Positions 1 to 47,313 of a DNA stretch of 47,313 bases are shown here, one piece after another. The first letter of the stretch is position 1; every line of letters starts with the position of its first letter. The notes under the pieces were generated by a model. The model saw only the letters and a program-made list of their open reading frames with translations. It made no database searches and was not told the DNA's origin. Position numbers and translations under genes: made by a program. Source of the DNA: Bacteroidales bacterium (GTDB lineage Bacteria > Bacteroidota > Bacteroidia > Bacteroidales > UBA932); the NCBI GenBank assembly GCA_017651465.1, contig JAGCCX010000065.1:1-47313 (forward strand). Reading direction: 5' to 3'.

Positions 1-1037
1 CGGTCCTTGACGGCAACGGCGGCTCCTGCGGCGATCATATTCGTGCAATGGGTCTGCTGAGTACCGAACAGCGGGCCGACCGAGACTGGTAGTCCGTATG
101 CGGCAGGCTCTATGATGCTGTGGGGCGATTCGCCGCTGAAGCCCGAGCCCACGAAAGAAGCAAATCCGTAGCGGTACAGACGGGAAAGCATTCCCACGGT
201 ATCGACTATCAAAGCCTGTGCGCTCCGGGGATTATCGCCGGGATCGGTATAGAGCACGGCTCCCCCCTTGATGGAAGATAGCAGATGGCTGATTTGCGCC
301 TTCCCCTGCTCGTGAGGGATAATCAGGAACTTATCACCGGGATTGCGGTTGGCAGCGGCAATGATGCACTCGTCATCTTCGTCGGGAAGGGTGCTCCCGG
401 CCACGAACACCTTGTGCCCGTCGCACCACCGTTCCACCAGGGCGTCGCTCCATTGTTCGGCCGCTATGGCGTTAACCCTGTCGAGGCGCGGGTCGCCGGA
501 AATGGCCACATTGCTTAGTCCCGCTTTCTTGAGCACCTCAAAAGACGACTCGCTGTTTACGATTATTTTGGTGAAGCAAGTGCGGAATGCATCAAGATAT
601 ATCTTCCCTATGGGCTTGAAATACGCCATATCAGGCAAGAAACGGGCAGAAATCAGATAGGTAGGTATGTTGCGGTCACGCAGCTCGTGAAGGAAATTAA
701 GCCAGTAATCGCTGATGGATACAATTACTTTTACAGGGCGGACCAAATCGAGGAAGCGGCGGGCGTTGCGCTTGGTATCGATAGGAAGATAGAATACAAA
801 ATCGGCTACCGGATCGTTTTTCAAATGCTCATAGCCCGAGGGAGAGAAAAAGGTCACAAGGAAACGATACTTACTCTCCCTTGCCCTTATGGCCTCTATT
901 ACGGGGCGCGCCTCTTCGAACTCTCCGTACGAGGCAGCGTGCACCCATATTATGTCTTCAACACCTTTACAGGCTTTTTCAATACGTTCGAACTGGCCTG
1001 CACGGCCCTTGAAGAATTGGTACAGCTTAGAACTCAT
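1..1037 (-). CDS. waaA: 3-deoxy-D-manno-octulosonic acid (Kdo) transferase, 3' end cut by window edge
   Basis: This enzyme transfers Kdo from CMP-Kdo to lipid A at the inner membrane in lipopolysaccharide core synthesis. My reverse-strand translation shows the family pattern HAASYGEFEE at residues 33-42, where Glu39 matches the catalytic base of WaaA. A later stretch, SGESPHSIIEPAAYGLP followed by VGPLFG, is the C-terminal nucleotide-sugar binding region. The last few dozen residues lie beyond base 1. The first ATG (1037-1035) overlaps the uvrA stop as ATGA, so translation is probably coupled. From this ATG the protein lacks the usual N-terminal membrane anchor. The in-frame codons just upstream would read [10 protein letters not shown], resembling the family N-terminus, but begin at ATC directly after a TAA, so the true start is uncertain. 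The family call is firm. Confidence 0.9.
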   Translation of the reverse strand, partial: MSSKLYQFFKGRAGQFERIEKACKGVEDIIWVHAASYGEFEEARPVIEAIRARESKYRFLVTFFSPSGYEHLKNDPVADFVFYLPIDTKRNARRFLDLVRPVKVIVSISDYWLNFLHELRDRNIPTYLISARFLPDMAYFKPIGKIYLDAFRTCFTKIIVNSESSFEVLKKAGLSNVAISGDPRLDRVNAIAAEQWSDALVERWCDGHKVFVAGSTLPDEDDECIIAAANRNPGDKFLIIPHEQGKAQISHLLSSIKGGAVLYTDPGDNPRSAQALIVDTVGMLSRLYRYGFASFVGSGFSGESPHSIIEPAAYGLPVSVGPLFGTQQTHCTNMIAAGAAVAVKD

Positions 1038-3808: not shown

Positions 3809-3813
3809 AGCCC

Positions 3814-8892: not shown

Positions 8893-10132
8893 AGTAACAA
8901 AGACTGACGTCGACTACACAGGCATTCCGGTCGACAAAAACGGACGAAAGAGCAACATCAGTATGTTTATGGTGATGCTCGGTTTCACCTTCTTCTCTGC
9001 CAGCATGTGGGTTGGCCAACAATTAGCAGCAGGACTTGATTGGCGTGGTTTCGTATGGGCACTGATACTTGGAGGCGCCATTCTGGCGGCTTATACAGGC
9101 GCACTTGGCTGGATAGGAGCGGAGAGCGGAATGTCGCTGGATATGCTTTCACGCCAGAGTTTCGGCACCAAGGGAAGCTGGCTGCCGAGCGCTATGATCA
9201 GCTTTACCCAGACCGGTTGGTTCGGAGTTGGCCTGGCTATGTTCGCGATTCCCGTAGCCAAGGAGCTTCTGGGCCTGGAAGTCACTCCCGATTCTATGCC
9301 CTGGCAGGGTTATCTGCTTGTGGCTGTAGCGGGTATCCTTATGACCGCCAGCGCCTATTTCGGCATCAAGAGTCTTACGATTATCAGTTATATAGCGGTT
9401 CCCGCAGTGGCCATACTCGGCACTGTGGCGATGATTATGGCAGTGCGTCACGGTGACGCCGGCCTGGTGGAACAGTTTGCCAAGGGGACAAAAGACCTGG
9501 GCATTATTGCCGGCGCCGGTCTGGTGGTGGGTAGTTTCGTGTCGGGAGGAACGGCCACGCCGAACTTCACCCGCTTTGCCAAAAACGGCAAAGTGGGCCT
9601 GATCATCACCGTTATCGCCTTCTTCCTCGGCAACAGCCTTATGTTCCTTTTCGGTGCGGTTTCCAGCATCTACGTAGGCGGCAACGACATCTTCGAGGTA
9701 ATGCTCAACCTCAATCTGTTCTACCTTGCGGTTCTCGTGCTCGGCCTTAACATCTGGACAACCAACGATAACGCTTTGTACACGGCCGGTCTTGGCCTGT
9801 CCAACATCTTCGGGCTCTCCAAGAAGACGATGGTCATCATCTCCGGTATCATAGGTACCGTGGCTGCAGTGTGGCTGTACTGGAATTTCTGCGGCTGGCT
9901 CAACGTACTCAACTGTACCCTGCCGCCGGTGGGCATCATCCTCATCCTCCATTACTTCACCCACAAAAAGGAAAAGGTGCAGGAAAAGGCCGTCAACTGG
10001 AGCGCCATCGCGGGTGTGGTGGCCGGTGCAGTGGTGGCCAATCTGGTGCACTGGGGCTTCGCTTCCATCAACGGTATGGTGGTAGCTGCCCTCTGCTGGG
10101 GTGTAGGTGAACTGATTGCCAGGAAGAAATAA
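8885..10132 (+). CDS. NCS1-family nucleobase (cytosine-type) permease
   Basis: About 415 residues with roughly twelve hydrophobic segments; TM1 contains GFTFFSASMWVGQQLAAGL and later segments include SFTQTGWFGVGLAMF and GLNIWTTNDNALYTAGLGL, both characteristic of CodB-like cytosine/purine permeases of the NCS1 family. The Trp-Thr-Thr-Asn-Asp stretch lies in the substrate region. The start at 8885 (MSKVTKTDVDYTGIPV) overlaps the upstream PRTase-like gene by eight bases; starts further upstream would add an unrelated tail. No cytosine deaminase is adjacent, so cytosine is not certain as the substrate. The gene ends directly against the convergent bcp gene. Confidence 0.88.
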   Translation: MSKVTKTDVDYTGIPVDKNGRKSNISMFMVMLGFTFFSASMWVGQQLAAGLDWRGFVWALILGGAILAAYTGALGWIGAESGMSLDMLSRQSFGTKGSWLPSAMISFTQTGWFGVGLAMFAIPVAKELLGLEVTPDSMPWQGYLLVAVAGILMTASAYFGIKSLTIISYIAVPAVAILGTVAMIMAVRHGDAGLVEQFAKGTKDLGIIAGAGLVVGSFVSGGTATPNFTRFAKNGKVGLIITVIAFFLGNSLMFLFGAVSSIYVGGNDIFEVMLNLNLFYLAVLVLGLNIWTTNDNALYTAGLGLSNIFGLSKKTMVIISGIIGTVAAVWLYWNFCGWLNVLNCTLPPVGIILILHYFTHKKEKVQEKAVNWSAIAGVVAGAVVANLVHWGFASINGMVVAALCWGVGELIARKK

Positions 10133-29392: not shown

Positions 29393-29407
29393 TTTTTTTA
29401 GTGCTAT

Positions 29408-29923: not shown

Positions 29924-29926
29924 GAT

Positions 29927-30892: not shown

Positions 30893-30895
30893 CGA

Positions 30896-31870: not shown

Positions 31871-31871
31871 T

Positions 31872-32962: not shown

Positions 32963-34633
32963 ATGAACAAGCAGCACATCGCAGCCATAGCCGCAGGGCT
33001 CCCGCTGCTGGTACTCCCCTCCTGCCGCAAGGCCGCCGAGCGCCCCAATATCATTTTCTTCCTGGTTGACGACTTCGGATGGATGGACACCCAGGTCCCT
33101 TTCGGGCCTGATTGCTACCCCGAGAACAACAGGCACGACACGCCTAATTTCCTTCAGATGGCGGCGGAAGGCACCATACTTACAAATGCTTACGCTTGTC
33201 CGCTGTCCTCGCCCACACGCACCAGCATACTGACCGGAGTCAATTCCGCCCGCACTCACGTTACCAATCCCCTCGGGAGCCTGCGAGGAGCACAGACCGC
33301 ATACCCCAGCCCCGACGATTCGCCCTGGGCTACAATCGATTCGCTCTCCGGCGGATGCCTTGACTCTCCGGAGTGGAGCGTGAACGGGGTCAATCCGGCC
33401 ATTCCCGGCTCTGAAGACTCTATCGAAGACAGTTTTTACGGCACTGTCTATCCCAGTATCCTTAAAGACAACGGCTACTTTACCATCCACGTAGGCAAGG
33501 CTCACTGGGCCACGGCGGGCACTCCCGGCTGCTCTCCCTACAATATGGGATTCGTGGTTAATGTCGCAGGCGGCGTGGTGGAGTTCTCCAAATGCGGCTA
33601 CCGCTCCGAAGACAATTTCGGCAACATCAAGGACGGGCGCGGCGTTCCTTTCACTCCCCACAACCTTATGGAGTACTACGGCACCGGTATCCATATGACA
33701 CAGGCCCTCACACGCGAGGCACTTAAGTCGCTCGAATTCCCGATCCGGGAAAAGAAGCCTTTCTACCTGTTCCTGTCGCAATACGCTGTTCACACTCCCA
33801 TTCAGGACGATCCCAGGTTTTACGAAAAGTACCTTGCACGCGGTATGGACGAGGGGCAGGCGCGCTTCGCCTCGATGATAGAAGGAGTCGATGTGAGCCT
33901 CGGCGAGATAAGGGCTTACCTCAAGGAAAAAGGAATAGAGAAGAATACCGTGCTAATAGTTATGGGCGACAACGGCGGCAACTCCGAGAATAAAAGCAAG
34001 GGCGGAGTTCCCCACACCCAGAACAAGCCCCTGCGCGAAGGCAAAGCATCCTGCTATGAAGGTGGCATCCGCGTCCCTATGCTGGTTTGCTGGCCGGGGA
34101 AAGTAGCGCCCGGCACCCGCATCAACACTCCTGTAATTTGCGAGGATCTCTTCCCCACCCTTCTCCACCTGGGCGGGGTAAAGGACTATAAAACCGTCCA
34201 GCAGATTGACGGAAAAGACCTTTACGACCTCCTTGTCAAAGGCTCCGCGCTGGCATCCAGGCAGCATTTCTCAAGCCTCGAGGAGGCCTACAGTTTCGAA
34301 ATCCCCGAGTCGCTGTCGGGTATCGATCCTGAAAGGTACATCATTTCCCATTATCCCCACCAGTGGAAGCCCTACGTCCTTTCCGACATAGATTATTTGT
34401 CGAGCATAAGGAGCGGCGAATGGAAACTGGTTTACAGGATGCGAACCAGGGAGCTGGAACTGTACAATCTCACCGACGATCTGGGCGAGCAGGAAAATGT
34501 GGCTTCGGCCTATCCCGAAATAGTAAAAAGCCTTGCAACGGTTCTTTCGGACAGCCTTAAAAAATGGGACGCCGGAATGCCGCTTGTGCGCGGTACCGGC
34601 GTCCCAGTAGAAATGCCTGACGAGTTACTTTAG
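32963..34633 (+). CDS. Sulfatase (arylsulfatase family, serine-type), lipoprotein
   Basis: A 556-residue sulfatase that should remove sulfate esters from glycans. The signal peptide has lipobox LPSC (Cys21). The metal-binding start NIIFFLVDDFGWMD follows. The formylglycine motif is S82-S-P-T-R, so the catalytic residue comes from serine and needs an anaerobic sulfatase-maturating radical SAM enzyme. Later landmarks are GKAHWA, YFLFLSQYAVHTP-like FYLFLSQYAVHTP, VLIVMGDNGG and LREGKASCYEGGIRVPM. No polysaccharide utilisation genes flank it. Longer in-frame starts lie upstream in promoter sequence; ATG 32963 gives the signal peptide. Its stop overlaps the stop of the convergent M16 protease. Confidence 0.93.
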   Translation: MNKQHIAAIAAGLPLLVLPSCRKAAERPNIIFFLVDDFGWMDTQVPFGPDCYPENNRHDTPNFLQMAAEGTILTNAYACPLSSPTRTSILTGVNSARTHVTNPLGSLRGAQTAYPSPDDSPWATIDSLSGGCLDSPEWSVNGVNPAIPGSEDSIEDSFYGTVYPSILKDNGYFTIHVGKAHWATAGTPGCSPYNMGFVVNVAGGVVEFSKCGYRSEDNFGNIKDGRGVPFTPHNLMEYYGTGIHMTQALTREALKSLEFPIREKKPFYLFLSQYAVHTPIQDDPRFYEKYLARGMDEGQARFASMIEGVDVSLGEIRAYLKEKGIEKNTVLIVMGDNGGNSENKSKGGVPHTQNKPLREGKASCYEGGIRVPMLVCWPGKVAPGTRINTPVICEDLFPTLLHLGGVKDYKTVQQIDGKDLYDLLVKGSALASRQHFSSLEEAYSFEIPESLSGIDPERYIISHYPHQWKPYVLSDIDYLSSIRSGEWKLVYRMRTRELELYNLTDDLGEQENVASAYPEIVKSLATVLSDSLKKWDAGMPLVRGTGVPVEMPDELL

Positions 34634-37512
34634 TAACCGAAGATCTCTTCAAGCGAAACTATCTTCACGGGGCCGAGGGTCTTAAGATAATCGGAATCCA
34701 GATCCTTGATATCACCGAGGATGGCATAGGCGTATGTGCGTCCCTTTACCCACTGCTCCTGAGCGGCCTTGATGTCATTGAAAGTAAGTGAAGGCAGAGC
34801 CTCGAACACAGCCTTGTCCAGCGGCTCTTCGATGCCCATACGACGGCAGTAGCGGTACTCGCTCAAAACGTTGCGGCCGGTTGTACGCTGGGTGCGGTAG
34901 CGGCTGTCGAGAGCATCCTTTGCCACGGCGAAAGCAGCGTCGGATTCGGGCATATTGTTGATGATATCGTCAAATGCCTCTATAGCCTGCTGCATCTTGT
35001 CGTTCTGGGTGGCGATAAACGCGGAGAATGAGAAGGTGCCGTCTTTGCATACGGGATTGCGGAGCCTAGCATTGGCGCTGTAGGCCAGACCGCGAGCTTC
35101 CCTCATCTCCTGGAACACGATGGCGTTCATACCGCCACCGAAGTACTCGTTGTACAGAGTCCTCACGGGCTCGCTGGCAGCCTCGAATTTCTCACCGCGG
35201 TTGGAGTACTGCTGATAGTAAATCTGGGGAGCGTCATACTGGGCCATATAAACCACGCTCTCGGGAGTCTGGAGCTGCTCGGGATAAATCTCGGGAAGCT
35301 GGGTATAGCTACCCTCGAAAGGAACGGCTTCCTTGACTTCGGCCTCGGACATAGGTCCATAATAAAGCACTTCGCAGCCATTGGACAGCACGTCGGAAAC
35401 AGCCTTGAGCAGATCTTCCGAAGTGAGTGCGGCGAGAGCGGCGTCGCTCAGATGGGTGCGCTTTACGAACTCAGGGCCGTAGGTCACGTACGAAACGAGG
35501 GCGGAGTAACAGCTGCGCTGGCTCTTTTTGCCATCAGCGCGAGACTTGAACGCATCGGCCTTGAGGTTGGCAAGAATACCCTCATCGGGAACTGCGTTGG
35601 CGGCCAGGTCGCGTACGATGGCAAGGGCCTCGGCCATATTCTCGCTAAGACCGGAAATGCGCACCGATGACTGGTTGGCACCGGAAGAGAACGAGAAGGA
35701 GCAAGCCAGCTCATAGAGACGGGCGGCTATTTCTTCGGCGGTCTTGTCGGAGGTGCCAAGATACTGCAGGTAGTCGAATGCCATTCCCAGGGCGGGATTG
35801 TTTTCGGTACCGGTGTTATAGATCATCTCAAGAGAGAAGACGTCGTTGATCTCGTTCTTCTTGTAGAGGACGTCAACGCCTTCTGCGAGCTGGAACTTGG
35901 ACATATCCTTGTTGAAGTTCACGAACACAGGCTCGATGGGTTTGACCTTGGTATCCTTGATCTCCTTGAGGAAGTCGCTCTGGGCGTCACGGTTGGCGAC
36001 GATAGGGGTAATCTTGGGAGCGGAAATCTTCTGGACGCTGGTATCCTCGCCCTGGCGCTTGTAAACCACGGCATAATTGTTATCGGCGATGAATTCCTTT
36101 GCCCAGGAAACTATATCCTCCTTGGTAACTTGCTCGTAGCGCTCGATTTCGGTGGCTGCATCCTTCCAGTCAACACCGTTGATGAACGCATCCACATATG
36201 CCATAGCGCGGGAACTGTTGTTCTCCAGCTGGCGCATCTTGGAAAGCTTGATGTTATTGATGGTAGCGCTGATGAGCGACTCGTCGAAAGCGCCTTCCGC
36301 AAGTTTTCCAACCTCTTCGACAGCCATAGAACGGAGTTCGTCAAGCGACTGTCCCTGCTTGGGACGTGCCATAACGATAAACTGTCCGTAATCGGGCTGG
36401 ATGCTTGCGCCTGAGTACATAAACAGAGCCTTCTGCTGCTGGTTGATGTCAAGGTCGATAAGACCGGCCTGGCCATTGTAAAGAACGGAACCGGCAATCT
36501 CGGCAACTGCGCAGTTCTTAAGGTCGGTGGCGCCGGGAAGCCTCCAGGCAAGGGCGATGCTCTCGGCCTCTTTACCGAATACTTCCTTGACTATAGGCTC
36601 GGTGATGGGCTCCTCAGGCTCATATTCAAGAACGGGGATGGAGGGATTGGGTTTCCAGTCGCCGAAGTACTTCTTAAGGATCTTGACCATCTCGTCCGGA
36701 TTGAAATCACCCGACACGCAAACTGCTATGTTGTTGGGAACATAGTACTGGTCGTGGTATTTCTTCACGTTGGTGATGGAAGGGTTCTTGAGATGCTCCT
36801 GGCTGCCGAGGGTAGTCTGCTGGCCGTAAGGATGGTGGGGGAAGAGAGCCTGGGCGATGACTTCCCAGATCTTGCGGCTGTCCTGGGTAAGGGACATATT
36901 CTTCTCCTCATAGATGGTCTCAAGCTCGGTATGGAAGCCGCGGATGACTCCGTGACGGAAACGGTCGGCCTGGATGCGGGCCCAGTTGTCGATCTGGTTG
37001 GAGGGGATATCCTCTACGTACACTGTCTCGTCGTCACTGGTGAAAGCGTTGGTGCCGTCGGCTCCGATCATAGACATAAGTTTGTCATACTCATTGGGGA
37101 TGGCTATTTTGGACGCTTCGTAGCTGACGGAGTCGATGCGGTGGTAGATGGCTTCGCGCTCGGCGGGGTCTTCGGTTTTACGATACTGCTCAAAGAGCTG
37201 CTCGATCTCGTCCAGAAGGGGCTTCTCGGCGGCATAGTCCGTGGTGCCGAAACTTTCAGAGCCTTTGAACATAAGATGCTCGAAATAGTGGGCGAGGCCG
37301 GTGGTCTCCGAAGGATCGTTCTTGCTTCCCACCTTTACGGCGATGTAGGTCTGGATGCGCGGTTGCTCTTTGTTAACCGACATAAACACCTTCATACCGT
37401 TGTCGAGAGTGTAAATTTTAGTACCCAGAGGGTCGTTCGGAACGGTTTCGTACTTGTTGCACGAGACCGCCGCAATGCATACCGCTAAAGCGGCGAAAAT
37501 GAATCGTTTCAT
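34630..37512 (-). CDS. M16-family (pitrilysin-like) zinc protease, lipoprotein
   Basis: 960 residues built from two M16 modules. The signal peptide has lipobox AVSC (Cys18), so the enzyme should be anchored in the cell envelope. The active site HYFEH (residues 75-79) is the inverted HxxEH zinc motif, with the distal Glu supplied by the ETIYEEKNM region. The second module contains MNAIVFQEMREARGLAYS, the usual inactive C-terminal half that forms the peptide chamber. A -7 element TAACTTTGT lies upstream. It is a single gene, convergent with the sulfatase. Such enzymes degrade peptides in the periplasm; the substrate is unknown. Confidence 0.94.
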   Translation of the reverse strand: MKRFIFAALAVCIAAVSCNKYETVPNDPLGTKIYTLDNGMKVFMSVNKEQPRIQTYIAVKVGSKNDPSETTGLAHYFEHLMFKGSESFGTTDYAAEKPLLDEIEQLFEQYRKTEDPAEREAIYHRIDSVSYEASKIAIPNEYDKLMSMIGADGTNAFTSDDETVYVEDIPSNQIDNWARIQADRFRHGVIRGFHTELETIYEEKNMSLTQDSRKIWEVIAQALFPHHPYGQQTTLGSQEHLKNPSITNVKKYHDQYYVPNNIAVCVSGDFNPDEMVKILKKYFGDWKPNPSIPVLEYEPEEPITEPIVKEVFGKEAESIALAWRLPGATDLKNCAVAEIAGSVLYNGQAGLIDLDINQQQKALFMYSGASIQPDYGQFIVMARPKQGQSLDELRSMAVEEVGKLAEGAFDESLISATINNIKLSKMRQLENNSSRAMAYVDAFINGVDWKDAATEIERYEQVTKEDIVSWAKEFIADNNYAVVYKRQGEDTSVQKISAPKITPIVANRDAQSDFLKEIKDTKVKPIEPVFVNFNKDMSKFQLAEGVDVLYKKNEINDVFSLEMIYNTGTENNPALGMAFDYLQYLGTSDKTAEEIAARLYELACSFSFSSGANQSSVRISGLSENMAEALAIVRDLAANAVPDEGILANLKADAFKSRADGKKSQRSCYSALVSYVTYGPEFVKRTHLSDAALAALTSEDLLKAVSDVLSNGCEVLYYGPMSEAEVKEAVPFEGSYTQLPEIYPEQLQTPESVVYMAQYDAPQIYYQQYSNRGEKFEAASEPVRTLYNEYFGGGMNAIVFQEMREARGLAYSANARLRNPVCKDGTFSFSAFIATQNDKMQQAIEAFDDIINNMPESDAAFAVAKDALDSRYRTQRTTGRNVLSEYRYCRRMGIEEPLDKAVFEALPSLTFNDIKAAQEQWVKGRTYAYAILGDIKDLDSDYLKTLGPVKIVSLEEIFGY

Positions 37513-37630
37513 ATTGTACTAACTAATTTTCACAAAGTTAGAAAAAAAAAGATTCATTTTTTTTGGAGGTAATAAAAAAAACTATATCTTTACACCGAAG
37601 TTTTTCATAGTTTAAGTTTAGGTTAAGTAG

Positions 37631-37660
37631 CGGGGCGCTCGCAGTGATGCAAGCGCCCCG
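37631..37660. terminator. GC-rich hairpin between the lipoprotein and M16 genes
   Basis: CGGGGCGCT.GC, loop AGTGAT, GC.AGCGCCCCG forms an 11-pair stem. No good T-run follows on the minus strand, so it may be a weak terminator or an mRNA 3'-end stabiliser for the 37687 gene. The rest of the 37513-37686 gap is AT-rich and contains the M16 promoter. Confidence 0.5.
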
Positions 37661-37686
37661 TGAATTTTGTCCTCCGCCCGGCTCCC

Positions 37687-38751
37687 TTACTCTTTGAATT
37701 GATAATCAGATATATTCTGCACTCCGGGTATGCCATAGTAAGCCTCCACTATGGTTCCTTTCAAGAAGATTTGCCTCCCGATCAGCGCCGGATGGTCAAC
37801 CAGATTCAGATTGTCCCGGACATTGCCCTTGGCGAGTTGGACCGACAGGCAGAGCGACTTGTCTTTACAGGACGATTTGGTGGCCAGAACCAGGTTGGTC
37901 CGCGACGAGAAGGGCGGCGAAAACGAGCATTTGCTCGAAGACAGGTCCCCGCCCACTATGTAGCCGTAAACCCACACGTCTTCCTCGCCCGCGTGAGACT
38001 TGGCCTCGCTTACGCTGTATGCCTTTTCAAGGTCGAAGCCCGCATTCTCTCCGCCTCCCCCAACGGTAATGTCTTCCCGGGTCCAGTTGCGCGTGGTATC
38101 AACCTGGACCACTATTCCGTTCCTGGATCCTTTTTCATCTACGTTCACGCCCAGGGTCAGGACCTGCTGGGGCTCGAGACGCCTGCTGAACAGCGTGCTC
38201 TCCACTCCCCCGTCGTTCATCTCAAGATTGACCGTACCGGGCTGGAAATACGCAATGCGGGTTTCCTTGAAGCCGTACATCAGCTTGCCGGCGGCAGATT
38301 TAAGAAAGAGCGTCGCTCCGGGATAAGCGGCAACGAATGACGAAGATATGCGCAGGCGTATGCCCGAATTAAGTTGTACGCACGCGAGAGTCACCACCGT
38401 GGTCTTGCCGGCCTTTACGGAAGCTACCTGAGTATCTCCCCACTGAGGCGAGTCGAACAGAGGCGCCGAAAAGTCGCAGGAGCGGGCATTGACGGTATAA
38501 GTACCCTCGTCGAGAGTAAAGCTTTCCTGGGAGGCGCCGTAGGTACCTTCGTAGATAATCTTGCCTTTGGAGTCGCTGACGGTCAGGAGGAAGTCGTTGG
38601 TGTCGGGGAAAGCCGCCCTGGTTGAAGGGAGCGTGCCTTCGGCGAAACGGATCTGAAGTATTCCCTGGCGCCCGAACGGCTGCATCAGGGCTTCACACGA
38701 GGCCGACATCAATGAGACGGCCGCAAATAAACAAAGAAGCATCTTTTTCAT
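37687..38751 (-). CDS. DUF4493/DUF6359-like lipoprotein of unknown function
   Basis: About 354 residues from ATG 38751 (MKKMLLCLFAAVSLMSASC), with lipobox Cys19 or so; a start further upstream would add seven unlikely residues. The first two-thirds have DUF4493-type beta-sandwich features (GILQIRFAEG, IIYEGTYGASQESFTLDEGTYTVNA, VTLACVQLNSGIRLRISSSF). The last third is OB-fold-like with VWVYGYIVGGDLSS, TNLVLATKS, VDHPALIGRQIFLKGTIVEAYYGIPGVQNISDYQF, as in DUF6359. Similar two-part proteins in Bacteroidales are surface lipoproteins or fimbria-associated. No fimbrial or glycan genes flank it. Confidence 0.78.
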   Translation of the reverse strand: MKKMLLCLFAAVSLMSASCEALMQPFGRQGILQIRFAEGTLPSTRAAFPDTNDFLLTVSDSKGKIIYEGTYGASQESFTLDEGTYTVNARSCDFSAPLFDSPQWGDTQVASVKAGKTTVVTLACVQLNSGIRLRISSSFVAAYPGATLFLKSAAGKLMYGFKETRIAYFQPGTVNLEMNDGGVESTLFSRRLEPQQVLTLGVNVDEKGSRNGIVVQVDTTRNWTREDITVGGGGENAGFDLEKAYSVSEAKSHAGEEDVWVYGYIVGGDLSSSKCSFSPPFSSRTNLVLATKSSCKDKSLCLSVQLAKGNVRDNLNLVDHPALIGRQIFLKGTIVEAYYGIPGVQNISDYQFKE

Positions 38752-38843
38752 AGCTATGGGTTTTGCCGGCAAGATAAGACGAATTTCGTCACACCTCTTT
38801 AAAAAACAGCAAAACTTGAACGAAAAAAATGCTTTATAATTTG

Positions 38844-38915
38844 TACGCCCTAGGCGAATCGAACGCCTATCGTAGGAACCGGAATCCTAAATTTTATCCA
38901 TTAAACTAAGGGCGC
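38844..38915 (-). tRNA. tRNA-Arg (CCG)
   Basis: The acceptor GCGCCCT pairs with AGGGCGT (one G-T). The anticodon arm TAGGA-TTCCGGT-TCCTA gives CCG. The T arm has GGCGTTCGATTCGCC. A -7-like TATTTTTGC lies upstream on the minus strand, within the 47-base gap shared with fabD. Confidence 0.94.
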
Positions 38916-38949
38916 ATCAAACGGCATTGCAAAAATAATAAAAAATACG

Positions 38950-38958
38950 TAATTTTGT
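38950..38958 (+). promoter_or_regulatory. -7 promoter element of fabD-nifJ
   Basis: TAATTTTGT ends four bases before ATG 38963. ATTG at 38926-38929, 20 bases upstream, is a fair -33 match. The transcript should be leaderless or nearly so. Confidence 0.6.
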
Positions 38959-38962
38959 AAGA

Positions 38963-39850
38963 ATGAAAAGAGCATTTGTTTTTCCCGGTCAAGGTTCCCA
39001 GTTCAGCGGTATGGGCAAAGAGTTATATGATAACAGCTCCGATGCCCGCGCCCTGATGGAGCAAGCCAACGAGATACTGGGATTCCGCATAACCGACATT
39101 ATGTTCGAGGGCTCCGAGCTTGAGCTCAAGGCAACACGCGTCACACAGCCGGCCATCTTCCTGCATTCGGTCACGCTGGCCGGATGCAGTTCCCTTCCCA
39201 TACCCGATATGGTCGGCGGTCACTCGCTGGGCGAATTCAGTGCCCTGGTGGCCGCCGGTGCCGTGTCTTTTGAGGACGGACTGCGCCTTGTAGCAGCCAG
39301 GGCCGGCGCGATGCAGCGCTGCTGCGAGCTTCATCCAGGGGCTATGGCCGCTATCATCGCCCTCCCCTCCGAAACCGTCGAACAAGTGTGCAAGCAAATT
39401 CCCGGCACTGTTGTGGCGGCCAATTATAACTGCGAAGGGCAAATCGTCATATCCGGCGAGAGCGAGGCCGTAGCCCTTGCCTGTGCCGCTCTCAAGGAGG
39501 CGGGAGCCAAGAGAGCCCTCCCCCTGAGCGTAGGCGGTGCTTTCCACTCCCCTCTTATGGAAGAAGCCCGTTCAGAGTTGGCGGAAGCCATTGAAAAGAC
39601 AACTTTCAACGTCCCCTCCTGCCCGGTGTACCAGAACGTCAGCGCCAAGGCGGAGACCGACCCGGGACGCATCAAGGAGAACCTGCTCGCCCAGCTGACC
39701 TCTCCCGTACGCTGGACCCAGAGCGTAAAGGCTATGCTCGACTACGGGGCCACCGACTTTACCGAGATAGGCCCGGGCACCGTGCTGCAGGGCCTTGTGA
39801 GCCGCATCTCCAAGGGCCTGGAGGGCATTACCATTCAAGGAATTCAGTAA
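38963..39850 (+). CDS. fabD: Malonyl-CoA:ACP transacylase
   Basis: FabD loads malonyl groups from CoA onto acyl carrier protein for fatty acid synthesis. The 295-residue protein begins FVFPGQGSQFSGMG, carries the nucleophile motif GGHSLGE (Ser88), and later AFHSPLM with the catalytic His and QNVSAKAE. Length matches the family. It starts four bases after a -7 element and is followed 21 bases later by nifJ, probably on the same transcript, which would tie acetyl-CoA supply to fatty acid synthesis. No other fab gene is adjacent. Confidence 0.95.
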   Translation: MKRAFVFPGQGSQFSGMGKELYDNSSDARALMEQANEILGFRITDIMFEGSELELKATRVTQPAIFLHSVTLAGCSSLPIPDMVGGHSLGEFSALVAAGAVSFEDGLRLVAARAGAMQRCCELHPGAMAAIIALPSETVEQVCKQIPGTVVAANYNCEGQIVISGESEAVALACAALKEAGAKRALPLSVGGAFHSPLMEEARSELAEAIEKTTFNVPSCPVYQNVSAKAETDPGRIKENLLAQLTSPVRWTQSVKAMLDYGATDFTEIGPGTVLQGLVSRISKGLEGITIQGIQ

Positions 39851-39871
39851 CATTCACATATCTTAATACAC

Positions 39872-42800
39872 ATGGCACAAAAGAAATTCATCACCTGTGA
39901 CGGTAATCAGGCAGCCAGCAACATCGCTTACCTTTTCAGCGAGCACGCCGCCATCTACCCTATCACACCATCCTCCACAATGGCGGAAAACATCGACGAG
40001 TGGTCTGCCCAGGGCAAGAAGAACCTCTGGGGCGAGACTGTTAAAGTGACCGAGATGCAGAGCGAGGCCGGTGCCGCCGGCGCCGTGCACGGTTCCCTTC
40101 AGGCCGGTGCTCTCACCAGCACCTTCACCGCATCCCAGGGTCTCCTGTTGATGATCCCCAATATGTACAAGATTGCAGGCGAGATGCTCCCCGCAGTGTT
40201 CCACGTATCGGCCCGCGCCCTTGCTTCGCACGCCCTCTCCATCTTCGGAGACCATCAGGACGTAATGGCCTGCCGCCAGACCGGTTTCGCGATGCTCGCT
40301 TCCGGCTCCGTTCAGGAAGCCCAGGATATGGCGGCCGTAGCGCACCTCTCCACCATCAAGTCCAGCATACCCTTCCTTCATTTCTTCGACGGTTTCCGCA
40401 CCTCGCACGAGATTCAGAAAATCGAGGCCCTCGACGAAGACGCCCTCCGCGGAATGGTGAGCCAGAAGGCCCTGGATAATTTCCGCGCCCGCGCGCTCAA
40501 TCCCGACGCTCCCGTCACCCGCGGCACCGCCCAGAACGGAGACGTTTATTTCCAGGCAGTGGAGTCGCGCAACCAGGCCTACGATGCCATCCCCGACATC
40601 GTGGCCCGCTATATGGGAGAGATCAGCGAGCTGACAGGCCGCAGCTACAGGCCCTTCGAGTATTACGGCGACCCTCAGGCCGAGAATGTGATAGTGGCAA
40701 TGGGTTCCGTAACCGAGACCATACGCGAGACTATCGATTATCTTGCCGCCAAGGGTCATAAATACGGCCTTGTAAGCGTTCACCTTTATCGTCCTTTCTC
40801 CGAGAAGTACTTCCTCAAGGTGCTCCCCGCCAGTGTCAAGAAGATTGCGGTCCTCGACCGTACCAAAGAGCCCGGCGCCCTCGGCGAGCCTCTCTATCTG
40901 GACGTGAAGGCCCTCTTCCAGGGCAAGGAGAACGCTCCGCTGGTAATCGGCGGCCGCTATGGCCTCTCATCCAAGGACACCACTCCCGCCCAGATCGTGG
41001 CAGTGTTCGACAACCTCGAGCTCAAAGCTCCCAAAGCCGACTTCACCATCGGTATCGTGGATGACGTCACCTTCAAGAGCCTTCCGGTCAAGGAGGAGAT
41101 CTCGATAGTCAAGCCCGGCACCACCGAGTGCAAGTTCTACGGACTTGGATCCGACGGCACCGTAGGCGCCAACAAGAATACTATCAAGATCATCGGCTCC
41201 CACACCGACCTTTACAGCCAGGCGTACTTCGACTACGACTCCAAGAAGTCCGGCGGTTACACTTGCTCGCACCTGCGCTTCGGCAAGTCTCCCATCAAGG
41301 CCCCTTACCTTGTCGGCACCCCCGACTTCGTGGCCTGCCACGTGCCTTCCTACCTTAACAAGTACGACGTACTCAAGGGCATCAAAGAAGGCGGCAGCCT
41401 CCTTCTCAACTCTTTGTGGGACGAGGAAGAGACGCTCAAGCACATCCCCGATCACGCCAAGGCTGTTATCGGCCGCAAGCACATCAAGCTTTACATAATC
41501 AACGCCACCAAGATCGCGGCCGAAATCGGTCTGGGCGGTCGTACCAACACCATTCTCCAGAGCGCTTTCTTCCGCATCACCGGCATTATTCCCGCCGACG
41601 ATGCAGTCAAGTATATGAAGGATGCAGCCCTCAAGAGCTACGGCAAGAAAGGTGAAAACGTGGTGAATATGAACTACGCGGCAATCGACCGCGGAGGAGA
41701 ATATACCGAGGTCAAAGTCCCTGCCGAGTGGGCTAACATCTCAGCCAAATTCGAGAATCCCAACGCCAAGAGGCTCGCTCCCGCATTTGTCAAGGAGATT
41801 GCCGACGTGGTCAACGCACAGTGCGGCGACACTCTCCCCGTGAGCGTGTTTATGCCTTGGAAAGACGGTACTATGCCTGCCGGCACCGCAGCTTACGAGA
41901 AACGCGGCGTGGCTGTAAACGTGCCTGTATGGGATGCCGAGAAATGTATCCAGTGCAACTCTTGTGCATTTGTCTGCCCTCACGCAGCCATCCGTCCTTT
42001 CCTCCTGACCGAAGAAGAGGCCGCCGCAGTGCCCGCAGGTCTCAAGATTTCGGACGGCAAGGCCAACCTCAAGCAGTACAAGTACGCCCTGAGCGTGTCG
42101 GTGGCCGACTGTACCGGTTGCGGCAACTGCGTGGATGTGTGTCTTGCCAAAGAAAAGGCCCTCAAGATGGAGTCCTACCAGGACAATGTCGCCGAACAGG
42201 CCAACTTCGACTACCTCAACGCAAAGGTCGGTTACAAGCAGCCTATGGATCCCAAGTCCAATATGAAGGCCGCCCAGTTCGCACAGCCTCTGTTCGAGTT
42301 CAGCGGCGCTTGCGCAGGCTGCGGTGAGACTCCCTACATCAAGAACATCACCCAGCTTTTCGGCGACCATATGATGATTGCCAACGCTACCGGCTGTTCT
42401 TCGATCTACGGTGCTTCGTTCCCCGCTTCGCCTTACTGCACCGACGCCAAGGGACGCGGACCCGCCTGGCAGAATTCCCTGTTCGAGGACTTCTGCGAAT
42501 TCGGTCTGGGTATGAGGCTCGGAAGCGAGCGTATCCGCGAGACTGTAGCCCGCTATATGCAGAAGGGCCTGGAGTGCGAGAAGTGCTCCGCCGAGATGAA
42601 AGAGCTCTACCAGAAGTGGCTTGACAACCGTGGCGACTATGCAGCCACCCGCGAGGTTGCCGACAAGCTCGTTCCCCTGATGGAAGCCTGCGGATGCGAG
42701 GTCTCCAAGAGTCTGCTCGCTCTCAAGCAGTTCATTCCTGCACGCAGCCAGTGGATCTTCGGCGGCGACGGCGCTTCCTACGATATCGGCTACGGCGGTC

Positions 42801-43390
42801 TGGACCACGTGCTTGCCAGCGGCGAGAATGTCAACATCCTGGTACTCGACACCGAGGTTTACTCCAATACCGGCGGACAGTCTTCAAAAGCCACTCCTGC
42901 CGGCGCTATCGCCAAATTCGCCGCTTCCGGCAAGAAGATACGCAAGAAGGACCTTGGTATGATGGCAATGAGCTACGGCTACGTTTACGTGGCACAGGTG
43001 GCAATGGGAGCAAGCCCCGTACAGTATATGAACGCCATCAAGGAGGCAGAGGCCTATGACGGACCTTCACTCATCATCGCCTACGCCCCTTGTATCAATC
43101 ACGGTCTCAAGGCGGGTATGGGTTTGAGCCAGAAAGAAGAGAAACTCGCGGTCGAGTGCGGTTACTGGCATCTGTACCGCTACAACCCTCTTCTCGAAGA
43201 GGCCGGCAAGAACCCGTTCAGCCTCGACAGCAAGGAGCCCGACTGGGCCAAGTTCCAGGACTTTCTCAAGGGCGAGGTTCGCTTCTCATCTCTTGCAAAA
43301 CTCTATCCCGACACAGCCGGAGAGCTGCTTGCCAAGACAGAAGAGTTTGCAAAGATACGCTACAACACCTACAAGAAACTCTCCGAGTAA
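39872..43390 (+). CDS. nifJ: Pyruvate:ferredoxin (flavodoxin) oxidoreductase
   Basis: This enzyme oxidises pyruvate to acetyl-CoA and CO2 and passes electrons to ferredoxin in anaerobes. The 1172-residue single chain has all domains: ITPSSTMAE at the N-terminus (pyrimidine-binding domain), the gamma domain with FYGLGSDGTVGANKN near residue 425, two ferredoxin motifs CIQCNSCAFVCP and CTGCGNCVDVC from about residue 692, CAGCGETPY, and the TPP site GGDGASYDIGYGG followed by VYSNTGGQSSK near 960-990. The start codon lies inside one of only two CATG sites seen in the window. It is downstream of fabD and ends before a GC-rich hairpin. An anaerobic lifestyle follows. Confidence 0.97.
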   Translation: MAQKKFITCDGNQAASNIAYLFSEHAAIYPITPSSTMAENIDEWSAQGKKNLWGETVKVTEMQSEAGAAGAVHGSLQAGALTSTFTASQGLLLMIPNMYKIAGEMLPAVFHVSARALASHALSIFGDHQDVMACRQTGFAMLASGSVQEAQDMAAVAHLSTIKSSIPFLHFFDGFRTSHEIQKIEALDEDALRGMVSQKALDNFRARALNPDAPVTRGTAQNGDVYFQAVESRNQAYDAIPDIVARYMGEISELTGRSYRPFEYYGDPQAENVIVAMGSVTETIRETIDYLAAKGHKYGLVSVHLYRPFSEKYFLKVLPASVKKIAVLDRTKEPGALGEPLYLDVKALFQGKENAPLVIGGRYGLSSKDTTPAQIVAVFDNLELKAPKADFTIGIVDDVTFKSLPVKEEISIVKPGTTECKFYGLGSDGTVGANKNTIKIIGSHTDLYSQAYFDYDSKKSGGYTCSHLRFGKSPIKAPYLVGTPDFVACHVPSYLNKYDVLKGIKEGGSLLLNSLWDEEETLKHIPDHAKAVIGRKHIKLYIINATKIAAEIGLGGRTNTILQSAFFRITGIIPADDAVKYMKDAALKSYGKKGENVVNMNYAAIDRGGEYTEVKVPAEWANISAKFENPNAKRLAPAFVKEIADVVNAQCGDTLPVSVFMPWKDGTMPAGTAAYEKRGVAVNVPVWDAEKCIQCNSCAFVCPHAAIRPFLLTEEEAAAVPAGLKISDGKANLKQYKYALSVSVADCTGCGNCVDVCLAKEKALKMESYQDNVAEQANFDYLNAKVGYKQPMDPKSNMKAAQFAQPLFEFSGACAGCGETPYIKNITQLFGDHMMIANATGCSSIYGASFPASPYCTDAKGRGPAWQNSLFEDFCEFGLGMRLGSERIRETVARYMQKGLECEKCSAEMKELYQKWLDNRGDYAATREVADKLVPLMEACGCEVSKSLLALKQFIPARSQWIFGGDGASYDIGYGGLDHVLASGENVNILVLDTEVYSNTGGQSSKATPAGAIAKFAASGKKIRKKDLGMMAMSYGYVYVAQVAMGASPVQYMNAIKEAEAYDGPSLIIAYAPCINHGLKAGMGLSQKEEKLAVECGYWHLYRYNPLLEEAGKNPFSLDSKEPDWAKFQDFLKGEVRFSSLAKLYPDTAGELLAKTEEFAKIRYNTYKKLSE

Positions 43391-43410
43391 ATGCTGGGAG
43401 CTATATGAAG

Positions 43411-43438
43411 CAGGGCCGGCCCTTTCGGGTCGGCCCTG
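43411..43438 (+). terminator. Hairpin after nifJ
   Basis: CAGGGCCG.CCC, loop TTTC, GGG.CGGCCCTG is a strong stem 20 bases past the nifJ stop, followed only by TAGTTTAA. It lies between two convergent units and could serve either strand; the weak T-run makes efficiency uncertain. Confidence 0.6.
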
Positions 43439-43442
43439 TAGT

Positions 43443-44081
43443 TTAAATAGGCAGTATCACGAATACCAGCGCATCCCACAACGCGTGGCTCACAACCAGG
43501 GCCGGAAGTGCCTTTGGACAAAGGTAGTAGATAAAGCCCCACACGGCGCCGGCTACGAGCGCCGCCATAATGAGCATAAAGTTGAACGACCAGATGTGAA
43601 CCAGGGCATAGATTACCGCCGTAAGGGCAAAAGCAAGCAAGGTTCCGGCTTTGCGGCTACCGAGCAGAGAGGAGAAGGTTCGCTGCACATAACCGCGCCA
43701 GAACAACTCTTCCGCCGGCCCGATGAGCAGTATCAGCAGCGAGGCAATGAGTAAAGGCGACTGACCTTCTTTCATTGAATAAACCGCATCGACCCCGGGC
43801 CTGGCAAAGTCAAACAGCAGGGACGAGAGCTTGTCTCCCACCCAGAATATGCCCCAAAGTACAAAAGCTATAACAACTCCTGCAACTAACTGGGGCCAAG
43901 GCTTTTCAATCCTCAGGAGAGCTTTTTTATCAGGGGTAAAAGCCAGGGCGAGCGTAGTGAGGATGATAGCCGATACCGACATCACAAGCCATAAGCCGGG
44001 AGCCCCTCCGGTCCAGGGACTGAACATATAGAACCAGAGCAGCGCCGCCACGGCCAGCGCTATGCATAGGCGCGTCTTCAT
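43443..44081 (-). CDS. CPBP-family intramembrane metalloprotease
   Basis: 212 residues with about six hydrophobic helices. The CPBP/Abi signature is present as GPAEELFWRGYVQR (Glu124, Glu125, Arg129), followed by a helix with FNFMLIMAALVAGAVWGFIYY and VVSHALWDALVF carrying the distal conserved His and Asp. Such proteins process prenylated or other membrane substrates, or modulate signalling; the substrate is unknown. The gene overlaps menA by ATGA and is last in the M28-like/menA operon. Confidence 0.9.
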   Translation of the reverse strand: MKTRLCIALAVAALLWFYMFSPWTGGAPGLWLVMSVSAIILTTLALAFTPDKKALLRIEKPWPQLVAGVVIAFVLWGIFWVGDKLSSLLFDFARPGVDAVYSMKEGQSPLLIASLLILLIGPAEELFWRGYVQRTFSSLLGSRKAGTLLAFALTAVIYALVHIWSFNFMLIMAALVAGAVWGFIYYLCPKALPALVVSHALWDALVFVILPI

Positions 44082-44980
44082 AGAAGCACCGACAGGAAAA
44101 GCCCCGCGGAGAGCAGCACCGAGAACAGCAGCTGCAACTTGGCAGAGGCCTGGTCAAGACCTTTCATCGCCTCTATTCCCAGCGAGTCATACCTGAAGGC
44201 TTGCTGCATATTCTTCCACGCCGGGATCGCCGCCACAAGGCACAGGAGGGAGAGCGGATGAAGCCTTGAGAAACTCACCGCCGCCGCTATGCTCACAAAA
44301 GGAACGACCATATAAACCGCGTACAGGATGCTGGAGCTCTTGCCGCCTATTAGCATTGCAAATGTCTTGATGCCAGCGGCGCGGTCGCTCTCCGTATCGT
44401 AGGTATTGTTGGCGTGAAGTACCGATACGGTAATAATGCCTATGGGCAGCGAGAGCACAAGGGCGTCCCAGTGCATTTGCCCGCTCACGGCATAGGCTGT
44501 GCCCAGCACAGGCAGGATACCGAAAATCACGAAAATATCGGCATCGCCAAGTGCGTGGTATTTAAAGAACGAATAGAGCGCTGTGAGCAGCACCCCCACT
44601 CCCCCGATAATCCACAGGGCGGGCCCGCTCAGAAGAGCGATTACCAGACCTACCGCGCATCCCGCCGCAAAAAGAATGATGCTGAAGCGCAGATACTCCC
44701 CCGGCTCGAAATGATGAAATACCAGGTTTGGGACAGCAAAGGCATTCTCGTTATCCACGCCGGAGCGGTAGTCGAACCAGTCGCTCAGCACGTTCCCGGC
44801 GGAGTGCAGGAGCACCACACCCAGGAGGCAAAGGACGAAGATCAGATACGGCATAAAGCCGCCGGGCAGGAATCCTTTGCTGAACATATATGCAAAAGTA
44901 GCCAGAACCGGCATTGTTGAAACAGGAAAAGACCAGTAACGGGTAACTACGAACCAATCCTTGATACTGTGCTTGCTCAT
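44078..44980 (-). CDS. menA: UbiA-family prenyltransferase, probable 1,4-dihydroxy-2-naphthoate prenyltransferase
   Basis: MenA attaches the polyprenyl chain in menaquinone synthesis at the inner membrane. The 300-residue protein has about nine helices and the two Asp-rich motifs of the UbiA superfamily: NVLSDWFDYRSGVD near residue 64 and NNTYDTESDRAAG near residue 192. The N-terminal TRYWSFPVSTMPVL is typical of MenA. It overlaps both neighbours by four bases (ATGA), with an M28-like protein upstream and a CPBP protease downstream. Other men genes are not in the window, so a different UbiA substrate is not excluded. Confidence 0.85.
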   Translation of the reverse strand: MSKHSIKDWFVVTRYWSFPVSTMPVLATFAYMFSKGFLPGGFMPYLIFVLCLLGVVLLHSAGNVLSDWFDYRSGVDNENAFAVPNLVFHHFEPGEYLRFSIILFAAGCAVGLVIALLSGPALWIIGGVGVLLTALYSFFKYHALGDADIFVIFGILPVLGTAYAVSGQMHWDALVLSLPIGIITVSVLHANNTYDTESDRAAGIKTFAMLIGGKSSSILYAVYMVVPFVSIAAAVSFSRLHPLSLLCLVAAIPAWKNMQQAFRYDSLGIEAMKGLDQASAKLQLLFSVLLSAGLFLSVLL

Positions 44981-45819
44981 AGCGAAATAATCCAGTTGTG
45001 TATTAGAAGCGCCCGCCGCTCCAAGATCTCATAATCGAGTGTCTGGGCCGTGTCGGACGGTTTGTTGGTATTCATTGTGATTCCGGAGGTAAACATCACC
45101 GCCTTGATCTTGCGCTGGAGGAAGGGGGCCTGGTCTGAAATACGGGTATAAAAATAATCGGTGAACCCTTTGCTCCGGTAATAATCGTAGTAAAGCCTGA
45201 GCTGGGGGCCCTCGTTGGCCTTGTCCAGCTGCTTTTCATACTCCTTACCGCCAAGCGCGATGAGGAAGTCGGGACGGTACTTGTTGGGCGGTGCCAGCGT
45301 GCTTCCTATGGTGTCGATATTGACCACCAGCGAAATCTTGTAAGGCAGCTGCGCCATATTCTCGGCGCCGGCAAGCCCGTCGTGAACATCCAGTGCGGCA
45401 AAGATGTAATTGCAGCCCCTGCCCGATAAAGATTCCGCCAGATAGAGCATAACGGCCACTCCCGAAGCGTTGCTGTCGGCACAAGGATAGAGATTGTCCC
45501 CGATGATGCCCAGTCCGTCGTAATGGGCGCAGACTAAAACGTATTTATCCGACCGTGGATCCTCCCTGCAAACCGAATAGACATTGCGTCCCACTCCGCC
45601 GGGAGCAAGGAAGAACTGCAGCCTGGGCTGGAGCCCTATCTGCTGGAAGCGCCGCATAATATATACGGAAGCCTCTACCGAGCCACGCGTGCCGGGACGG
45701 CGGCCCTCAAGCAAGGGGTCGCTCAAGTGCTCCACATCCTCCTTGAGAGAGGCCCGCAGAGGAGCACACACGGCGCCGAGCAGCCCCAGGCAGACAATTA
45801 TTTTGCAGATACGCTTCAA
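44977..45819 (-). CDS. M28-like exported peptidase homologue with altered active site
   Basis: About 280 residues from a TTG start at 45819 (MKRICKIIVCLGLLGAVCAPLRA, a signal peptide). The only longer frame runs through the divergent promoter and the neighbouring gene and is not credible. The M28 fold is clear: AHYDG (His99), CADSNASGVAVML (Asp115), VVNIDTIGS (Asp169). But the catalytic Glu-Glu pair is His146-Asp147 (DVHDGLAG), the usual SDH is SDQ (Gln230), and the last metal His of HTPSDT is Asn252 (TNKPSDT). I infer reduced, altered or absent zinc hydrolase activity. It overlaps menA by ATGA. Confidence 0.82.
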   Translation of the reverse strand: MKRICKIIVCLGLLGAVCAPLRASLKEDVEHLSDPLLEGRRPGTRGSVEASVYIMRRFQQIGLQPRLQFFLAPGGVGRNVYSVCREDPRSDKYVLVCAHYDGLGIIGDNLYPCADSNASGVAVMLYLAESLSGRGCNYIFAALDVHDGLAGAENMAQLPYKISLVVNIDTIGSTLAPPNKYRPDFLIALGGKEYEKQLDKANEGPQLRLYYDYYRSKGFTDYFYTRISDQAPFLQRKIKAVMFTSGITMNTNKPSDTAQTLDYEILERRALLIHNWIISL

Positions 45820-45837
45820 TTCGGCACGATAAATGTT

Positions 45838-45853
45838 TATCTTTGCAAAAATA
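45838..45853. promoter_or_regulatory. Overlapping divergent -7 elements
   Basis: Plus TATCTTTGC (45838-45846) and minus TATTTTTGC (45853-45845) share two bases in one 16-base block. The gap between the two start codons is only 34 bases. Polymerases could hardly bind both at once, so the genes may be transcribed alternately. Confidence 0.6.
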
Positions 45854-47313
45854 GTGAAAAAGTTTCTCCTGACAATAGCGATCTTGTTCGCCTCCGCCCT
45901 CTCCGCCTTTGCCCAATATGACAAAGACGTTTTCAATATGCGCGGACGTCTCGCCTTGCAGGACGGGAAATATACCCAGGCTATTGAACATTTCAACATT
46001 CTTGCCAGACTTGACAGCACCGACTATTGGTGCTTCTTTTTCAGGGGTATAGCAAAGTACAACCTAGGGGACATCCGGGGAGCCCAGAGAGATTTCAACA
46101 CTTCCGTGCGCCTGAACCCAGTGTTCACCAACGGATACCACTACAGGGCCATTACCGAGAGCCGCACCGGCGATTACGAGAAGGCCTTCGCCGACTTCGA
46201 CAAGGCCATTAGCCTAAGGCCGGGATTCAACGGCCTCTACTACAGCCGCGGAGTCACAAATTTCCTGGCCCGGCGTTTCCCCGAGGCGGTGGAAGATTTC
46301 AACTACTACATACGAAAAGAAGCCAAGGACCCTTCGGCCTTCCTCAACAGGGGCGCTTCCTACCTGTTCCTGGGCGACACCCTCAAGGCCCTCGATGACT
46401 ACAACCGCGCCATAAAGCTGGACCGCTTCGAGCCGGAGTGCTACATACGCCGGGGACGCGTGTATGCGGCCCAGGAGCGTTATCTCGACGCCCTTTCGGA
46501 TATGACAAAGGCGGTCGAACTCGACAGCACCAACACCTTCGCCTACTTCAACCGCGCCCTGCTCTATTATGAGCTGCACGACTACAATTCCGCGATGCGC
46601 GACCTTAACCGCGTCCTCAAAGAAGAACCCGGCAATGCCCTTACCCTCTACAACCGTTCGCTCCTGTATGCGCAGGTGGGCGATCTGGGCAGCGCCCTGG
46701 AGGATATGGACCGCGTCATAAACATCAATCCCCGCAACGTGCTTGCATATTACAACAGGGCGGCATTCTTTATGGGGATGGGACGCTGGAGAGACGCCCT
46801 GGCCGATTACGACAAGGCCATCGAACTCTATCCCGATTTTGCCAAGGCATATCTGAACCGCTCCTATGTGGAGAATATGCTGGGTATGACCAAGGAGTCC
46901 AAGGCGGACTACCGTACTGCCCAGCGCAAGGTGGGAGAATACCGGGCAAAGAACGCCACCGGCGAGGCCTCGTTCGCCGATACCACCAAGAAATACGACG
47001 CCCTGCTGGCGCTTGACGCCGACTTTGCAAAGAAAGACTTCGACGACGAGCTGCTCCAGCACAGGGACATCGACATCCGCCTCCGTCCGCTTTACAAGTT
47101 CCACCTGGCGGCGCGTCCGGAGGAACGCAAGCTGGCCCTGAGCAGGCGTTACGAGAACGCTCTCATCGACCATTTCATCGATGCAGTGCCCGTCCCCGTG
47201 GTAGTTTCCAACAGCGACTCCCTCTCCACCCTCAAGCTGGTGCGCTCGCTGGGTTCCGTGCTTTCCGGAGACGGCAGTTCCGGAGCCGGCACGGTCAACC
47301 TGAGCCCCTCCGA
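45854..47313 (+). CDS. Exported tetratricopeptide-repeat protein, runs off right edge
   Basis: An open frame from GTG 45854 to the window end (at least 486 residues). The signal peptide is VKKFLLTIAILFASALSAFAQ. About ten TPR units follow, spaced about 34 residues apart: for example GKYTQAIEHFNILARLDS, GDYEKAFADFDKAISLRP, GDTLKALDDYNRAIKLDR, ERYLDALSDMTKAVELDS, RWRDALADYDKAIELYP. After residue 370 the sequence becomes charged and non-repetitive (YRAKNATGE, HRDIDIRLRPLYKFHLA). The GTG start lies seven bases after a -7 element; the next ATG would delete the signal. Such Bacteroidetes TPR proteins often act in envelope assembly or secretion; the partner is unknown. Confidence 0.85.
   Translation, partial: MKKFLLTIAILFASALSAFAQYDKDVFNMRGRLALQDGKYTQAIEHFNILARLDSTDYWCFFFRGIAKYNLGDIRGAQRDFNTSVRLNPVFTNGYHYRAITESRTGDYEKAFADFDKAISLRPGFNGLYYSRGVTNFLARRFPEAVEDFNYYIRKEAKDPSAFLNRGASYLFLGDTLKALDDYNRAIKLDRFEPECYIRRGRVYAAQERYLDALSDMTKAVELDSTNTFAYFNRALLYYELHDYNSAMRDLNRVLKEEPGNALTLYNRSLLYAQVGDLGSALEDMDRVININPRNVLAYYNRAAFFMGMGRWRDALADYDKAIELYPDFAKAYLNRSYVENMLGMTKESKADYRTAQRKVGEYRAKNATGEASFADTTKKYDALLALDADFAKKDFDDELLQHRDIDIRLRPLYKFHLAARPEERKLALSRRYENALIDHFIDAVPVPVVVSNSDSLSTLKLVRSLGSVLSGDGSSGAGTVNLSPS

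Follow-up and report, generated by a model that had tools for sequence, protein, structure and literature searches.

Recent loss of the tetranucleotide CATG from a Bacteroidales genome by selection, probably through a restriction-modification system

The question raised by this locus is by which process, and when, the tetranucleotide CATG came to be almost missing from it. The window, that is the whole stretch of 47,313 nucleotides that was analysed, is contig C63 of a MAG of 2.5 Mb (85 contigs, 95.1% complete). An earlier note on this DNA had reported only two CATG sites, at 9004 and 39871, where base composition would predict well over a hundred; a program count gives exactly these two, against 181.5 expected from base composition. 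The 4-mer count with a Markov expectation that the note had proposed as a check yields 176.0 expected from trinucleotides and places CATG lowest of all 256 4-mers in the window (second-order Markov, z -17.7), followed by CTAG (9 vs 57.3 expected, z -7.7). GATC, CCGG and GGCC had been described as common, which is correct for all three, although GATC itself is somewhat low (120 vs 195.1 expected, z -7.4). The features referred to below are the following.

1..47313, no strand: CATG-depleted contig C63 of the source genome (G000), with 2 CATG vs 176 expected, likewise most sampled GC-rich stretches
9004..9007, no strand: CATG kept in a permease gene (by reading; gene 8885-10132), also CATG in the sister genome G023
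34631..47313, no strand: stretch aligned to G023 and to the outgroup G071, in which 21 of 21 ancestral CATG were lost here
39871..39874, no strand: CATG kept, overlapping the start codon of the PFOR gene, also CATG in G023
39872..43390, plus strand: pyruvate:ferredoxin oxidoreductase (PFOR) gene, by reading, the marker for the tree and for the CATG state of relatives

The coding sequences were represented by 36 genes picked from the list of open reading frames (42,789 bases), which hold a single CATG, the site at 9004, whereas 200 shuffles of synonymous codons give 179.5 ± 9.7; neither codon bias nor amino-acid content can thus account for the shortfall. The third base preceding Met codons in these genes is T in 188 cases, G in 97, A in 69 and C in one, despite C making up 43% of the third bases preceding non-Met codons, which bears out the earlier remark that pre-Met codons avoid C and favour T. 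As the trinucleotide and synonymous-shuffle nulls are both far exceeded, base composition and codon usage are ruled out as the cause, and the refutation envisaged beforehand, a count near expectation or one explained by dinucleotide and codon bias, failed.

The sampled part of the genome, 982,578 bases or 39% with the window counted in, has 506 CATG vs 3,727 expected. CATG is absent from 320 of the 476 2-kb windows in the sampled stretches, and 51 of them have four or more. The CATG-bearing 2-kb windows are poorer in GC (mean 0.50 vs 0.56), and the observed/expected ratio by GC bin is at most 0.05 from 0.55 up, 0.18 at 0.50 and 0.46-1.14 below 0.50. In the contigs looked at, the GC-poor islands that bear CATG have sharp edges; the depletion is weak in these islands, which look like later acquisitions, and runs through the presumably older GC-rich part of the genome that was sampled; CATG density may mark recently acquired DNA in depleted genomes. 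A check on tRNAs is too small to inform, with CATG in one of the 23 tRNAs here and 1.5 expected. A GC-poor, CATG-bearing island with putative defence genes by reading is found in L073 (G000:C78:1-20000), where a CD-NTase-like protein is followed by a membrane protein and an AAA ATPase by an HNH protein; a 446-aa orphan DNA methyltransferase at the edge of L073 matches PADLOC Type II models.

By PFOR, G023 is the nearest relative (98.5% amino-acid identity), followed by G071 (97.5%) and then by the named loci L268 and L269, G011 and G027, and all six are CATG-normal; because close relatives show normal counts, the CATG-poor state is derived. For comparison with a sister genome, as the earlier note had suggested, the syntenic stretch of G023 was used (85.7% DNA identity, 42,490 mapped positions). 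It carries 146 CATG, of which two are kept in the window (1.4%), and the sequence runs through the lost sites with ordinary substitutions. For the median 4-mer of G023, 53% of the sites are kept; the lowest after CATG is CTTA, with 26%. Where G023 and G071 both align (34631-47313), the CATG common to the two, and thus ancestral, were lost here in 21 of 21 cases; the median 4-mer loss there is 21%. In the three-way alignment this branch has 537 substitutions vs 663 on the G023 branch, so it is not otherwise faster. The loss of CATG is therefore recent: it followed the separation of this lineage from a sister species in its own genus. The slightly more distant L272 (0 vs 56 expected) and L273 (observed/expected 0.25) are also CATG-depleted, apparently independently of this lineage. 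An impression of depletion in G004 and G034 came from short contigs, and further stretches of both are CATG-normal. One contig of G004 (L018, G004:C1, 5.3 kb) has no CATG vs 19.7 expected, G004 being otherwise normal in sampled stretches; it may be a foreign contig in that MAG, so that CATG density could act as a binning check.

The closest PFOR proteins come from uncultured Bacteroidales or Bacteroidia, many from the rumen or other gut, and three are from Candidatus Cryptobacteroides, which is probably the genus under study. Across 80 named PFOR loci the CATG observed/expected ratio has a median of 1.13 and extremes of 0.00 and 1.77; 12 loci lie at or below 0.25 and 13 below 0.4, the arbitrary threshold adopted for depletion, intermediate values also being present. 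On the PFOR protein tree (115 rows, 21 below 0.4), CATG state needs 13 changes, or at least 11 when judged by the well-supported branches, and not every change need be a gain; the tree, made with FastTree from one protein, includes repeat genomes, and some of the depleted rows are of the same species. Other words are rare in the same 80 loci (L268-L347): CTAG has a median observed/expected ratio of 0.03 (maximum 0.19) and TTAA one of 0.36 (minimum 0.04). In two loci, L286 (genome G088) and L135 (G067), the GATC ratio is 0.00 and CATG is nearly absent as well; neither genome has a D12 match.

The manner in which sites were lost can be read from the 146 CATG of G023, of which 134 are coding and phased, 11 intergenic and one unclassed. 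Silent escape from CATG exists in every codon phase, by way of a different base in each. In the phase CAT|G the third base changed from T to C in 18 of 18 cases (control CAT|notG, 26/66), and in xCA|TG the third base A was replaced by C, T or G in 11 of 11 (control, 300/450). In xxC|ATG the C gave way to T, A or G in 96 of 105 cases (control xxC|A-not-ATG, 275/1468), eight of the remaining sites being lost by other changes and one kept. Altogether 121 of the 133 coding losses are synonymous and 12 are not. The reverse step is missing as well: CAC preceding G changed in 0/35 cases vs 19/83 preceding other bases, and a new C at third positions arose in 0/130 cases before ATG vs 323/807 before other A (this gain-of-C analysis, like the 4-fold analysis below, dropped codons whose first two bases differ). 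Since the base replaced is the silent one of each phase (T, A or C) and no new C arises before ATG, the cause is selection against the word CATG and not C-to-T decay; the loss is near-complete, base-agnostic and mostly synonymous on one short branch, with the sister unchanged. Of the long selection that the earlier note had considered, the selection stands, and its length is limited by the loss having come after the split from the sister species.

CATG was probably selected against by a Type II restriction-modification system specific for it, the NlaIII/IceA (HpyI) kind being the likeliest. Such a system would have been acquired by the lineage after its split from the sister species. The endonuclease would then now and again cleave under-methylated CATG in its own host's DNA, or methylation as such would carry a cost, and each silent escape mutation would therefore be favoured. 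The responsible system would by now have been recently lost, or it would be missing from the 95%-complete MAG, possibly because its locus is mobile or varies between strains and so interrupts assembly; loci of both kinds drop out of MAGs.

Selection by a CATG cutter, as put forward earlier, finds support in the genus, where an ICEA endonuclease with an adjacent methyltransferase occurs, once in a depleted 23-kb locus. ICEA (PF05315) matches were obtained in four of 400 genus genomes, G092 (= G377 by coordinates), G417, G156 and G219; a first search of 61 genomes had given none and had no positive control, which the 400-genome search supplied. In all three loci examined (G092, G417, G156) a D12 methyltransferase lies directly beside ICEA in the order R then M; a contig end truncates the unit in two of them (G092, G156), and the endonuclease of G417 is complete. 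The G092 methyltransferase is directly downstream of the endonuclease fragment, a C-terminal part cut by the contig end that matches PF05315 at 6.9e-53, and the methyltransferase start compares with that of G092 at 67% identity over 64 residues in G417 and at 86% over 59 in G156. The G092 locus (L294, 23 kb), the only ICEA carrier measured, has 7 CATG vs 89 expected. The endonuclease fragment had no PADLOC or NCBIfam match and one plasmid match (Priestia, 40%); a PDB search gave no match.

Some phage proteins similar to the G092 methyltransferase are labelled 'ulcer associated adenine specific DNA methyltransferase', which we take to be the name of the IceA-linked HpyI methylase, and the ICEA family is presumably tied to NlaIII. 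Other similar proteins are labelled LlaI and FokI methylase, and a further one comes from an H. pylori plasmid on which an AlwI-family endonuclease gene is also found; with such relatives, the specificity of the G092 methyltransferase rests mainly on the ICEA partner. Judged from family names alone, the Cryptobacteroides ICEA pair is putatively CATG-specific and m6A-forming. Among viral contigs, one relative of the methyltransferase was found, on IMGVR_UViG_3300005613_000001 (527 kb). In 10.9 kb of that contig (L355) the HpyI-like gene, at 56-58% identity, neighbours other methyltransferase-like genes by reading, and CATG is at expectation (38 vs 39.6).

In the genome under study itself, whole-genome profile searches gave no D12, C5 or ICEA match, so that the search for NlaIII-type genes recommended by the earlier note came back empty; the MT-A70 profile also had no match and is uninformative, its controls being without a match too. 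No R or M remnant was seen in the sampled 39% of the genome. The window is without a DNA methyltransferase gene, as had been stated, the motif scan giving none and no whole-genome profile match falling on its contig. Several candidates were considered and rejected. The orphan 446-aa N6_N4-type methyltransferase of C78 sits in a CATG-bearing stretch beside the GC-poor island, and its layout has no match in other depleted genomes, by profile only. Neither the Type I HsdM/HsdS of C17 nor the Type IIG-like gene that lies at the C9 contig end (both named by reading) is of a class that should recognise a palindrome of four bases, and the C9 gene is located in a CATG-bearing island. Those of the weak PF01555 matches of about 470 aa that were read are RlmD-like.

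The D12 search extended to 22 depleted genomes (CATG below 0.4; 8 + 14, some of the same species), the 14 belonging to a second search of 28 further genomes that found the G092 gene. Seventeen of the 22 had no D12 match. Apart from the HpyI-like gene of G092, matches came from G031 and G089 (other types), from G085 (308 aa, with a score in the manner of the DpnM-like group) and, weakly, from G095. The G089 fragment is Dam-like by reading and has no similarity to the HpyI type, and D12 genes near an N6_N4 gene in relatives look like DpnII-type GATC systems. As only one of the 22 depleted genomes is a known ICEA carrier, and one carrier was measured, these numbers do not allow a statistical link between ICEA presence and depletion to be drawn; ICEA is found in 1% of genus genomes vs depletion in 13 of 80 sampled loci. 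The rarity of D12 in depleted genomes may reflect frequent later loss, MAG gaps or several different CATG systems.

It is possible, if doubtful, that the agent was a CATG system unrelated to NlaIII/IceA, either another Type II system whose enzymes escape recognition or a force needing no methyltransferase. The 17 depleted genomes without a D12 match are consistent with this, as are G067 and G020, in which no match above the cut-off was obtained for PF02086, PF01555, PF00145, PF02384, PF05063 or PF07669 (below it, a PF01555 match in G020 is RlmD-like by reading and PF07669 matches are weak). A CATG cutter without known domains has a precedent in UpaP162 of Ureaplasma, according to the available text of PMC6191088. 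Against it, the genus does contain the ICEA pair, one depleted genome among its carriers, and contig ends truncate two of the three ICEA units examined. By a broader version, which we consider unlikely, most depleted Cryptobacteroides were purged by a CATG-targeting agent other than a resident restriction-modification system with a methyltransferase of a known class; this might be a mobile CATG addiction or nuclease system that swept the genus repeatedly and is now gone, or a system without a recognisable methyltransferase.

It is much less probable that CATG is hypermutable, through cleavage and error-prone repair or through damage to a modified base, with selection merely filtering the outcome. 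The escape rate from CATG is indeed about 25 times control at 2-fold sites and at least 15 times at 4-fold sites, and the 11 intergenic losses, taken together, hit all four positions; however, coding losses fall on the silent base of each phase, and the 0/130 new C before ATG runs against a mutational origin. A base-blind mutator filtered by selection on proteins could mimic part of the pattern, which is unlikely.

Deamination of 5-methylcytosine at CATG, which turns C into T and leaves TATG or CATA, had been the other suggestion of the earlier note. It is refuted as the sole cause and is hardly credible. TATG is the commonest replacement in the phase xxC|ATG (74/105), and 4-fold sites show a modest T excess at CATG (T 33, A 12, G 8, n=53, vs T 69, A 50, G 50 in the control, n=169; p 0.007). 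The same 4-fold sites also went to A and G, however, and deamination cannot empty the phases CAT|G (18 losses) and xCA|TG (11), where C stays intact. The genome also gave no C5 methyltransferase match. A plain bias in dinucleotides, codons or palindromes is refuted here, as is an artefact of assembly: CTAG is also rare (9 vs 57), likewise in the 80 named loci, but the trinucleotide and shuffle nulls are exceeded, close sisters are normal, and ordinary substitutions continue through the lost sites.

Restriction-site avoidance in host genomes was reportedly described by Gelfand and Koonin in 1997. As in such cases, a short palindrome is scarce across the genome here, and a matching Type II system is found in relatives. 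According to PMC4687349, Type II sites can still be avoided after the system has gone, as a trace of it, and the present avoidance, with no resident system found, resembles those traces. What sets this case apart is that one branch has lost nearly all its sites while a sister of 85.7% DNA identity stayed as it was, and that a single genus shows at least 11 changes of CATG state on its tree. Some lineages of the Bacteroides fragilis group are depleted of mostly palindromic methylated motifs, which was judged not explicable by hypermutation alone (PMC10333322, available text). Lineage-specific motif depletion in Bacteroidales is shared with that study; methylation was measured there, whereas here sequence alone was used and the loss was polarised site by site.

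As regards the preferred NlaIII/IceA kind of system, IceA1 recognises CATG and M.HpyI targets it, and in H. pylori M.HpyI is universal, yet CATG is the densest motif analysed and endonuclease presence has no significant relation to motif density (PMC10423294, available text); carrying such a system therefore need not cause depletion. The genus resembles NlaIII and IceA1-HpyI in having ICEA endonucleases followed by a D12 methyltransferase similar to ulcer-associated ones, but the pair was not found in this genome and its CATG specificity is putative.

Among the matches listed, neither the literature on CATG avoidance or depletion nor that on Cryptobacteroides restriction-modification or methylation held a report of this case, subscription journals being mostly outside the scope of these searches. 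Site avoidance and motif depletion are already known, and this is an extreme, cleanly polarised case. What it contributes is a loss that is almost total on a single branch, with polarity resolved site by site, and a state that switched repeatedly within a genus. Because silent escape is available in all three phases, the genus provides replicated, polarised natural experiments on the strength and speed with which a restriction system remodels the genome of its host, and an escape rate 15-25 times control quantifies the selection. The mismatch between depletion and visible restriction-modification genes points to lost or unassembled defence systems. Elsewhere in the window, a co-directional gene row at 27842-32884 includes several small exported-looking proteins without an assigned function (by reading).
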